Source: Flavobacteriales bacterium
Lineage (GTDB): Bacteria; Bacteroidota; Bacteroidia; Flavobacteriales_D; Sanyastnellaceae
Assembly (NCBI GenBank): GCA_019694805.1
Contig: JAIBBG010000003.1
Coordinates: forward strand, 62,001-126,000
DNA length: 64,000 nt
Direction of reading: 5' to 3'
The position numbers were made by a program, and so were the translations under genes. This document shows, piece by piece, positions 58,822-62,258 of the stretch; position 1 is the first letter of the stretch; each line of letters begins with the position of its first letter. A model generated the notes under the pieces. The model saw only the letters and a program-made list of their open reading frames with translations, made no database searches and had not been told where the DNA came from.

Positions 58822-59598
58822 ATGAAAAACGCTTGTATCCGGATATGTTTTTTTCTTTTCGTTTTGCCATTGTGCGCGCAGGACAGTAAACAGTTGTTCC
58901 GGCATCAAATAGATTTAAATAAGTCGAATGATGATTTTCCTTTGATTTACCTAGGAATGAACAACGCTTTCCACGTTCTTCAGTACGAATTGTTGGATTC
59001 GCTTGAGTTGATTGCCGACAGTCTTTTTGTGCTATCAAATAAACAATCCGGGGATTACAACATTGAGTCACCAAGGTATTTCTCCTTGCTACCCGCGTTA
59101 CCGGGTGATATGTCCCTTATAGCCCATTTCAAAAATGGACCGGCAAAAATGATTCAATTGCGCGCCGCTTATATACCACCAGTTCAAGTGTCGGTTTATT
59201 TGGATGATCATTGTATCAATGATGAATTTATTCCAGACAGTGTTTATTCGTGCGATAGAATTCAAACACGGGCAAAATTGATTTATCCCGAACATGTCCA
59301 TGGATACATGAGGTTTAGAGGCGTGCACGAGGCCGCCATTTTCGCCGGTAATAAGAGTATTGCAGGAATCGTTGGATGGTACGATGCGGGGGATAACTCG
59401 CAAGTGTATAATCTGCCGAGCATCCAAGAGGAAATGGAATTAATCATCTTAGAGGATAAGTTAAAATGTCTTGCATTTGGTCCTGTATTTGGCAATGGGC
59501 AAAAGACTCTCATTTATTTGACTTCAACAACTCCGCGGAAAATTCGCATGAGAAAAAAAGGACACTGGTTGAAGAATCATCTACACCATTTTTTATGA
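58822..59598 (+). CDS. secreted protein of unknown family
   Basis: About 258 residues from ATG 58822 (the ATG at 58792 puts ten residues before the signal). Signal MKNACIRICFFLFVLPLCAQ. FPLIYLGMNNAFHVLQYELLD near residue 40 resembles the YVGVDNPI-type segment of GldM-like domains, which is weak evidence. The rest is beta-rich with two Cys (HCINDEFIPDSVYSC). The final 30 or so residues, ending KGHWLKNHLHHFL, are basic and are read opposite to the 3' end of the truncated OmpA-like gene, so they may be a recent extension. Confidence 0.68.
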   Translation: MKNACIRICFFLFVLPLCAQDSKQLFRHQIDLNKSNDDFPLIYLGMNNAFHVLQYELLDSLELIADSLFVLSNKQSGDYNIESPRYFSLLPALPGDMSLIAHFKNGPAKMIQLRAAYIPPVQVSVYLDDHCINDEFIPDSVYSCDRIQTRAKLIYPEHVHGYMRFRGVHEAAIFAGNKSIAGIVGWYDAGDNSQVYNLPSIQEEMELIILEDKLKCLAFGPVFGNGQKTLIYLTSTTPRKIRMRKKGHWLKNHLHHFL

Positions 59599-59854
59599 GA
59601 AAATCAAGAACAGATAGCGCTCTTTGCTGAGAGAGTTTTTCATTGAGCGGCTTTGGGCCGACGTCGTCTGTGTGACCCGCAATGGACCATTCAGTTTCTA
59701 TTGTACTGTTGGAAGCAATCAAATTCAATAGATCAACCTTTGATTGTTCATTGAGTGCATATTGACCATTTTCAAAAAGAATGGTGAGTGATTGTGCAAA
59801 TACTGCAGCGTGCAACAGCATGCCTGCAGCAAAAAATGAAATTACCTTTTTCAT
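59510..59854 (-). pseudogene. truncated OmpA-like protein
   Basis: A 114-residue frame with signal MKKVISFFAAGMLLHAAVFA-Q, then the first part of an OmpA-C-terminal (peptidoglycan-binding) domain: LTILFENGQYALNEQS, the Asp-containing GHTDDVGPKPLNEKLSQQRALSVLDFL. About residue 90 the similarity stops and the last 23 residues (DDSSTSVLFFSC...) do not resemble the family; the closing GYGE.xP...NRRVEF part is missing. This foreign end is read opposite to the 3' end of the convergent 58822-59598 gene over 89 nt. A deletion that joined the two genes would explain this. The Asp and Arg of the binding site remain but the fold is incomplete. Confidence 0.6.
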
Positions 59855-59925: not shown

Positions 59926-61572
59926 TTATTTGAAGAAATACCCAATAGCGCATCTGATGTAGGGCATGGTATATCTATGGTCAAAGTCTTTATTCCAACT
60001 GTACATATTACGTTTGAGGCCTGCACCAATTGCAATAGACAAGTTGTTTATTCCTGGTCTGTATTGTAACTCAAGGTTTGCGGCTCCATTGATCATCATT
60101 TTGCGGTATCCGTCGAAAGTGTCAATAGAAGCGATGTCTTGTTGATCGGTCCTTAAGTAACTGGCTTTAGCACTCACTCTGTAGTCCGCCTCAAGGCCGA
60201 TACCGGCACTTAGACAAAGTTTGTTTTTTTGTATGAAGCGATATTGATATGTAATAGGAACAGTGATGTGATGAATTTTGGTGATACCGTTTTTTGCAGA
60301 AATTTTCTTGTTTTCGGAAGTGAATGAAGTGGAATCGATTTGTTGGATCAGGGTAGAATCTGAATGAGCAACAACATACGTCGTGTCATAGTTGATGATA
60401 CCACCGGATGGTGATGCGTCAACAATTTGCAGTACATAAGTCCTGTAATCCCACACAATTGTAGTATCGTATTCCTGTGTGGTGCTTTTTCCAGAATATA
60501 CGATTTTCTCCCCAGATTGATAATATCCTAACCCGAACAATACCGAAGATCGGCCCAATGATCGAGCGATTCCCGCATCAAAACCATAAGAGATAATTTC
60601 TGACTCCTGTTCGTTGCGTTGTGAGATATAGTTACGTTGTTCTTCTTGATTGCTCTTCAACATGCCATTGTTTTGAATCATGCACATTCCAATAAAGAAC
60701 TGACTGTTCGTTTTTGTTGGCAACAATTCGATTAGAGGCTCATTGTTCTCTAGCGTTTTTTGATCCTGGGCTAACGAATCTTCAAGGGTGGTGACATCAT
60801 GAGAAATCTCGTTAACAATATTCGTCGAATCCTTTATCTCGATAGGAATAATGGGAAAGATTGCTTTCGATTGAACATTCTTTGTAGAATCTGATTGGTT
60901 TATTTCTTGAATAGCATCAACATCCTTCATCAACGTTTCGGGCGCATTTATTTGGATATTAGATGTACCAACTTTCTCGAGTGTACTTTGGTTTATGCTC
61001 GTATGAATGGGACTGTTGTTGTTGATTGCTTTCGCATCTTTGACTTCGTTCAAAGAAGTCTCAAAACACTCTTGAGGTTCAAGCAGTGTAATCGACTTGG
61101 GGTTTGATGATGATTTTAAATGGGCCGGCGTTGATTCATCGTGGTTTTCTGGAGTAAAGGGCTCCATGTGATTATTCTGAGGTATATCATCTGAAGATAA
61201 TGTTTCACCCACAGCGGCCTCAGTTGTGTTGTTTGTCTTTTCTAAGTGTTCTGGAGATTCGGTGTTATCAATTGGAGTGTTGTTTTCAGCAACTGCATTG
61301 GATTCGTTTCGAATGGCCGAAGGGCTTTCTGACGTTGTTGCGTTCTGTTCGGAATGCTCGTCACGACGGAATAATAATAGAATGCATGACAAGACGATCA
61401 CGGCGACAAAAGAGAACAGGAACGCGAAACGTTTTCTTTTTTTGGAAGCGATAGCGCTATCTTCAGCAATGAGTAATTCCATCGCTTTCTCCGCAGCATT
61501 CGCATCCAATTCCGCCTCTCTGCCGAAGAGTTGTTCACGGAACAATTGATCTATTTCTTCTCTTTCTTTCAT
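59926..61572 (-). CDS. candidate dual membrane-spanning anti-sigma factor with outer-membrane barrel
   Basis: A 548-residue protein with four parts. Residues 1-48 are cytosolic, acidic then basic (...KKRKR), likely the sigma-binding part. Residues 49-68 are a strong helix (FAFLFSFVAVIVLSCILLLF). Residues about 70-290 are a low-complexity, Ser/Asn/Glu/Thr-rich periplasmic linker. Residues about 290-548 look like an outer-membrane barrel: FFIGMCMIQNNG, SYGFDAGIARSLGRSSVLFGLGYYQSGE, THHITVPITYQYRF, LCLSAGIGLEADYRV, NLELQYRP, LSIAIGAGLKRNMY and a final aromatic strand YTMPYIRCAIGYFFK. The ECF sigma gene ends 2 nt upstream, so both are co-translated. This resembles the Dma class of regulators in Bacteroides, which link the outer membrane to a cytosolic sigma factor. 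Confidence 0.8.
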   Translation of the reverse strand: MKEREEIDQLFREQLFGREAELDANAAEKAMELLIAEDSAIASKKRKRFAFLFSFVAVIVLSCILLLFRRDEHSEQNATTSESPSAIRNESNAVAENNTPIDNTESPEHLEKTNNTTEAAVGETLSSDDIPQNNHMEPFTPENHDESTPAHLKSSSNPKSITLLEPQECFETSLNEVKDAKAINNNSPIHTSINQSTLEKVGTSNIQINAPETLMKDVDAIQEINQSDSTKNVQSKAIFPIIPIEIKDSTNIVNEISHDVTTLEDSLAQDQKTLENNEPLIELLPTKTNSQFFIGMCMIQNNGMLKSNQEEQRNYISQRNEQESEIISYGFDAGIARSLGRSSVLFGLGYYQSGEKIVYSGKSTTQEYDTTIVWDYRTYVLQIVDASPSGGIINYDTTYVVAHSDSTLIQQIDSTSFTSENKKISAKNGITKIHHITVPITYQYRFIQKNKLCLSAGIGLEADYRVSAKASYLRTDQQDIASIDTFDGYRKMMINGAANLELQYRPGINNLSIAIGAGLKRNMYSWNKDFDHRYTMPYIRCAIGYFFK

Positions 61573-61574
61573 CT

Positions 61575-62132
61575 TCAGGCCGTCGCAATTTTTTGTTTTG
61601 AAGCGATCATTTTTTGTAATTCTTCCCGGGCTTTACTCACGTGCCACTTGCTTGTGCCGTCGCTGATGCCCAACATTTCAGCTATTTCTGCGTGTGAGTA
61701 ACCTTCGATGGCAAAGAGGTTAAACACGAGTCGTGTTGCTTCCGGAAGAGCAAGCAGCATGATCTCCAATTGCTCTGAGGTAAACTTTTCTTCCGTTTCA
61801 TTGAGCGTGTGAAGTCTGGATATTGATGTTACATCTTCTCTCAACTGTAGCACTTCATGCCGCTTTTTGTTTTTTCTATATTCATCAATGATGGTGTTTG
61901 TCATGATTTTTCTGCACCATGCTTCGAATGCACCATCATGCTCATTAGTGCCGAGCGATCTGATCAATTTGATGAAGGCGTTATTCACAAGCATTGTTGC
62001 ATCATCATAGTTCACCACATATCTTCTACACATTCCCATCATCACCGGAAACACGATGCTGTACAACTCCGTCTGCGATCGACGATCGCTTTTGACGCAT
62101 TGCTGTATGAGTTTCCGTGATACTTCTTTCAT
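61575..62132 (-). CDS. ECF-type sigma-70 factor
   Basis: A 185-residue sigma factor. Region 2 spans about residues 20-95 (ELYSIVFPVMMGMCRRYVVNYDDATMLVNNAFIKLIRSLG ... AFEAWCRKIMTNTIIDEYRKNKK, containing the promoter-melting and -10-binding parts), and region 4 about 120-180 (QLEIMLLALPEATRLVFNLFAIEGYSHAEIAEMLGISDGTSKWHVSKAREELQKMI, with a helix-turn-helix). It is followed at 2 nt by the candidate dual membrane-spanning anti-sigma factor, its probable partner. Targets cannot be listed without the binding motif. A hairpin precedes the gene. Confidence 0.94.
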   Translation of the reverse strand: MKEVSRKLIQQCVKSDRRSQTELYSIVFPVMMGMCRRYVVNYDDATMLVNNAFIKLIRSLGTNEHDGAFEAWCRKIMTNTIIDEYRKNKKRHEVLQLREDVTSISRLHTLNETEEKFTSEQLEIMLLALPEATRLVFNLFAIEGYSHAEIAEMLGISDGTSKWHVSKAREELQKMIASKQKIATA

Positions 62133-62135
62133 TGT

Positions 62136-62176
62136 ACAAAACCGCTGGCCGACATTGATAAATGTACGACCAGCGG
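62136..62176 (-). terminator. hairpin between the T9SS gene and the sigma gene
   Basis: Arms CCGCTGG (62142-62148) and CCAGCGG (62170-62176) extend inwards with one mismatch and one bulge to about 14 pairs. Read leftward it is followed by TTTTG, so it may terminate the transcript of the T9SS gene (62259-63197) or act in the sigma leader. The T-run is short. Confidence 0.55.
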
Positions 62177-62258
62177 AGTTATATTCATGGTTGCATCACC
62201 GCGCATTGCTGATCGTTGGTTTCATCATCAATCCGCAATGCATCGGTGCTGCATAGGA

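Follow-up and report, generated by a model that had tools for sequence, protein, structure and literature searches.

Background

The closest described systems are the Dma proteins, in which a head, a transmembrane helix, a disordered tether and a C-terminal barrel succeed one another in one polypeptide, and whose genes adjoin a gene for an ECF21 sigma factor (PMC13088901). In Bacteroides thetaiotaomicron the phenotype of a dma2 deletion requires das2, and induction of NigD1 is a hallmark of Dma1 (PMC13088901). In a pair of similar description, M0N98_03760/03761 of P. vulgatus, a sigma gene adjoins that of an anti-sigma factor which, by prediction, crosses the periplasm and ends in an outer-membrane barrel; the sigma gene is upregulated 33-fold upon treatment with the envelope-damaging toxin BcpT, and the sigma regulon is switched on when the partner is lost through transposon insertion (PMC9308784). 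The Dma layout has so far been studied in gut Bacteroidales. The locus reported here extends it to another lineage of the Bacteroidota, in which it is common.

A sigma factor gene and its single-pass partner

The window, by which we mean the whole 64,000-nucleotide stretch of Flavobacteriales DNA that was analysed, contains the following elements near its end:

61575-62132, minus strand: ECF sigma factor, 185 aa (Pfam and TIGR02937)
59926-61572, minus strand: partner protein, 548 aa, with a C-terminal barrel (ORF, Pfam, alignment of relatives, AlphaFold2, Foldseek, profile comparison)
61429-61572, minus strand: head of the partner, residues 1-48, predicted to be cytosolic, charged, with two helices (4-15 and from 24) and a basic KKRKR ahead of the membrane; the part proposed to bind the sigma factor (head profile, AlphaFold2)
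61366-61428, minus strand: predicted inner-membrane helix, residues 49-69 (hydropathy 2.96; AlphaFold2 helix 24-69)
60715-61365, minus strand: predicted acidic, disordered periplasmic linker, residues 70-286 (pLDDT below 50 for 73-282; composition)
59932-60714, minus strand: predicted eight-stranded outer-membrane barrel, residues 287-547, with a long surface loop at 360-426 (PF13568, AlphaFold2, Foldseek)
62133-62258, minus strand: intergenic stretch before the sigma gene, with two strong hairpins (fold z -7.6)

The sigma factor matches the Pfam models Sigma70_r2 (E 3e-9) and Sigma70_r4_2 (E 9e-14) and scores 85 bits against TIGR02937 (cut-off 43); against TIGR02985 (Sig70_bacteroi1) it reaches 80.9 bits, under the cut-off of 126.4. 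Its TGA stop codon is followed by AG and then by the ATG of the partner gene, so that the two genes are spaced by 2 nt on the minus strand. The original prediction, which had paired an ECF sigma gene with the protein that follows it, is thereby confirmed with exact coordinates.

The partner has a single strongly hydrophobic segment, starting at residue 49, with a mean hydropathy of 2.96, and AlphaFold2 places a helix at residues 4-15 and a long helix at 24-69, in keeping with the 48-residue head and one inner-membrane helix first proposed. As KKRKR precedes the hydrophobic segment, the positive-inside rule points to an N-in/C-out orientation. The low-complexity linker, earlier put at roughly 220 residues, comes out at about 215; it is acidic (12% E, 12% N, 11% S and 10% T, with a net charge of -27, over residues 71-284) and is modelled with pLDDT below 50 over 73-282. 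A Pfam scan of the partner recovered neither a known anti-sigma domain in the head nor a FecR domain. An anti-sigma domain of the zinc type was rejected, as residues 1-48 contain no cysteine and give no Pfam match.

The two hairpins upstream of the sigma gene fold with -59.8 kcal/mol (z -7.6), and the second ends about 10 nt from the sigma start codon and is followed by UUUU. A repeat origin was rejected, as the stretch occurs in a single copy in the genome. On the other side of the pair, 71 bp 3' of the barrel gene, lies a gene for a small secreted OmpA-domain protein of 114 aa (59510-59854, minus strand), which matches 77 of 98 model positions, lacks the C-terminal part and overlaps a convergent gene. 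Its role as a third operon gene or conserved partner was rejected, as no homologue occurs at the other loci.

The predicted C-terminal barrel

In the AlphaFold2 model, computed from the partner aligned with 27 relatives, the C-terminal half forms eight barrel strands (residues 287-304, 323-339, 342-359, 427-448, 452-473, 492-504, 511-524 and 531-547), with pLDDT of 82-96 in most 10-residue blocks outside the loop 360-426; within this loop, 372-379 and 390-414 are of low confidence. A Foldseek search of the PDB with this model returned 64 matches below 1e-3, headed by the OmpA transmembrane domain (9fzc, E 1.7e-6) and also including NspA (1p4t, TM-score on target 0.72), OmpX and OmpW. Three turns on one side of the barrel span 2-6 residues and the loops on the other side up to 67, an asymmetry that, in the model, runs in the direction typical of outer-membrane barrels. 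The protein ends in YIRCAIGYFFK. Pfam PF13568 (OMP_b-brl_2) matches residues 416-506 with 29.5 bits, just above the cut-off of 27, and a sequence search of the PDB with the family profile gave matches at chance level only, mostly on the low-complexity linker. The barrel-like half surmised at the outset is thus borne out by the eight predicted strands, the structural matches and the Pfam hit, and the soluble fold for residues 290-548 that would have spoken against it is not what AlphaFold2 and Foldseek return.

Distribution of the pair and conservation of the head

Homologous sigma genes were found in 59 of 60 related genomes. Next to the closest sigma matches, the following gene nearly always overlaps or abuts the sigma gene and encodes a single-pass protein with head and linker. 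Dozens of genomes have this layout 3' of a homologous sigma gene, which indicates that it is not a product of chance. With a conservative profile, the barrel type was detected in 159 of the 299 genomes from this order, so that the type is common in the lineage, and in 105 of 296 genomes across the phylum, mostly of the same class. The 548-aa protein, used as a single query sequence, retrieved no relative from 39 related genomes, and only profile or sigma-anchored searches succeeded; the window copy is therefore divergent. About six such sigma pairs, with varied C-termini, seem to be present in one genome. We also observed loci at which the head appears tandemly duplicated ahead of the membrane helix (L062, L073, L170), and others (L060/L019, at about 857-859 kb of G037:C3, and L068) at which the barrel protein is split by a frame change or stop into a head-linker ORF and a barrel ORF, reflecting sequencing error, decay or real separation. 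Short partners of 180-245 aa, in which no folded C-terminal domain was recognised, accompany members of the same sigma clade at L006, L035, L039, L043, L144, L145 and L187.

A profile of the head, built from barrel proteins of the same order, matched 72 of 84 proteins encoded downstream of the sigma genes as against none of 572 N-termini of other ORFs (E<=0.01, Z=1000; best decoy 0.012); the 84 test proteins came mostly from named genomes, and a few of them are near-copies of training rows. The proteins encoded downstream of the other, unrelated ECF factors of the source genome did not match the head profile. Hydrophobic residues at positions 7, 11, 15, 27, 30 and 34 (window numbering) are kept in 93-99% of 138 heads. 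At position 27 the window head carries Ala in place of the Trp found in 68% of heads, which is a point against placing it with Dma/Das. Comparison with Bacteroidales heads revealed a weak but detectable likeness, with E-values from 0.0006 to 0.15 at Z=1000.

Across 137 pairs, sigma distances correlate with head distances (Mantel r 0.69), a value reached by 0 of 999 shuffles. In the barrel-type subset the correlation with sigma distances is 0.80 for the head, 0.90 for the barrel and 0.20 for the linker. By these sequence distances, sigma and partner appear to diverge together as the tether drifts, though plain co-inheritance of the gene pair would also yield correlated distances.

Relationship to Dma/Das and other sigma-regulating systems

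The window locus shares with Dma1/Das1 and Dma2/Das2 of Bacteroides thetaiotaomicron the order of an ECF sigma gene followed by a head, one helix, a long disordered tether and a barrel; the adjacent sigma gene, the single transmembrane helix after the head, the disordered tether and the barrel are all recovered here, by prediction. For a comparison beyond layout, we assembled a set of Bacteroidales Dma-type proteins from pairs of Parabacteroides distasonis, Bacteroides finegoldii and Phocaeicola massiliensis chosen by layout. One of the B. finegoldii pairs adjoins a divergent NigD-like gene and is presumably of the Dma1 type. When the profile of the window family was aligned with that of this set (hhalign), residues 322-526 of the window protein, in the barrel region, matched with a probability of 98.9% (E 3.6e-17); the heads of the two groups are weakly alike.

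The sigma factors set the limit of this likeness. A mixture-model tree separates all 61 sigmas of the clade, Bacteroidales included, from two other ECF factors of the source genome with 99% support, and within the clade it places the window sigma among 21 barrel-linked sigmas that form a well-separated group with 98% support, to which those of Bacteroides, Phocaeicola and Parabacteroides do not belong. Orthology to Dma1 was accordingly rejected, as the sigmas of B. finegoldii and P. massiliensis fall outside this group, and the function described in Bacteroides must not be transferred to a sigma of another subclade than the Dma1 type. Also unlike Dma1/Das1 and Dma2/Das2, the window locus displays no NigD-like gene and no polysaccharide-utilisation context. 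The assignment as a Dma/Das-like pair, originally proposed from the layout, is supported at the level of kind by the barrel fold, the hhalign match, the sigma-clade-specific head and the Mantel correlation, with a separate subclade for the window pair, which is ordinary for its lineage and a further member of a design already described.

The P. vulgatus pair M0N98_03760/03761 resembles the window pair by its description (PMC9308784), but stems from a different order and is induced by BcpT. In FecI/FecR/TonB-dependent receptor systems an outer-membrane signal likewise reaches an ECF sigma factor, as we propose for the window pair; there, however, receptor, FecR transducer and sigma factor are separate proteins, whereas the window partner is one polypeptide without a FecR domain. 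Membership in this group was rejected in view of the missing FecR match, of the absence of a receptor-sized gene in 56-64 kb and of the TIGR02985 score below cut-off. The source genome has a FecR-like case elsewhere, judging by N-terminal sequence (L012).

Proposed mechanism and alternative explanations

It is very probable that the two genes encode a sigma/anti-sigma pair of the Dma/Das kind, in which an event at the outer membrane is relayed to the sigma factor via one polypeptide. The gene pair, the domain order, the barrel fold, the presence of the head across the sigma clade and the homology to Bacteroidales Dma-type proteins were computed here; we infer sigma inhibition, cellular topology, a proteolytic step, a trigger and a regulon as follows. 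Anchored in the inner membrane, the 548-residue protein would keep the ECF sigma factor bound to its head on the cytosolic side; its disordered tether would cross the periplasm, and its barrel would be inserted in the outer membrane by the BAM machinery. The trigger might be an outer-membrane event such as a barrel that fails to assemble, damage to the envelope or a ligand bound by the surface loops. The signal would then pass along the single polypeptide, in our own reading most likely because the exposed tether is cleaved by a protease and the head is then released, and the freed sigma might transcribe an envelope-related regulon, perhaps including its own operon.

An inhibitory role is ascribed to the window partner because the published pairs of the same layout act as sigma and anti-sigma factors (PMC13088901, PMC9308784). 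The partner might conversely help the sigma factor, recruiting, stabilising or activating it when the barrel senses its signal, and a head of just about 48 residues without a known Pfam anti-sigma domain would be compatible with such a role. This is nonetheless unlikely, given that in B. thetaiotaomicron and P. vulgatus the sigma regulon becomes active once the partner is missing (PMC13088901, PMC9308784) and that the window copy has both barrel and head homology to Dma-type proteins.

Two further explanations concern the topology of the partner. Cys-63 follows a weak lipobox-like VLSC (residues 60-63), and were the hydrophobic segment a cleaved or lipoprotein signal, the product would be a free barrel with a disordered N-terminus and the sigma factor would be controlled otherwise. 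We consider this very improbable: the hydrophobic stretch runs on past Cys-63 (ILLLF), this cysteine is not conserved in the aligned relatives, the 48 preceding residues far exceed the n-region of a signal peptide, and a conserved head ahead of the segment would make no sense if it were removed. Slightly less probable still is a soluble periplasmic domain in place of a membrane barrel, to which the Pfam score barely above the cut-off would lend itself; the eight strands in AlphaFold2, the OmpA-headed Foldseek matches and the arrangement of short turns on one side and long loops on the other, as in outer-membrane barrels, all argue against it.

T9SS-tagged partners in the same sigma clade

The head is also joined to modules other than the barrel. 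Among about 137 head-linked partners, 24, two of them in the source genome, end in PKD and/or T9SS type B domains and have no barrel, and some other partners of the same sigma clade consist of the linker only. The source-genome example examined most closely is:

L007:3007-4128, source-genome contig C87, about 174.5-175.6 kb: L007 partner, PKD and T9SS type B sorting domain (TIGR04131/CHU_C; Pfam, TIGRFAM)

This partner matches Pfam CHU_C with 2.7e-16. Its match to TIGR04131 is borderline, with 35.9 bits in the genome search (G000:C87:175364-175627) and 32.9 in the protein scan on either side of the cut-off of 35; its relatives reach up to 48.5 bits and keep the FTPNGDGxND motif. In the AlphaFold2 model of the source-genome T9SS-tagged copy, the two head helices recur, the PKD domain and the C-terminal domain are predicted with confidence, and a membrane helix at 63-78 has low confidence. 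Further PKD and type B partners in the same sigma clade are found at L024, L044, L126, L151 (Crocinitomix catalasitica), L165, L167 and L168.

A type B domain is normally preceded by a cleavable signal peptide and works with a PorP/SprF-like shuttle (PMC12618676), whereas these partners start with a predicted membrane anchor. The source genome encodes some 40 other type B proteins. The literature searched yielded no anti-sigma factor bearing a T9SS type B signal; the nearest published case comes from P. gingivalis, where PorA, which is a separate CTD protein, lies upstream of PorXY-SigP (PMC7712824). The T9SS-tagged partners represent a sister architecture, apparently unreported, and might be T9SS-reporting anti-sigma factors. 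Such a version, if real, would connect a secretion system straight to a sigma factor.

The barrel and the type B module each depend on a machine of the outer membrane (BAM and T9SS, respectively), and so delivery itself may be what is read. The sigma clade as a whole could then be a general read-out of outer-membrane export, with head and helix joined to a BAM barrel or a T9SS type B module and the anti-sigma factor releasing its sigma when the hand-over fails or is disturbed; we regard this as a speculative and rather doubtful generalisation. The use of the same head with different outer-membrane modules makes a clean comparison of what is sensed possible. On the FastTree sigma tree the barrel label has to change 13 times, but the well-supported branches of the mixture-model tree force just one change; repeated swapping of C-terminal modules is at most suggested by these sequence-based trees. 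In Crocinitomicaceae, a gene for a secreted protein of about 735-785 aa with an N-terminal 'YYTLDGS'-like motif regularly comes next after the T9SS-tagged anti-sigma gene, and this three-gene unit recurs at L131, L151, L163, L165, L167 and L185.
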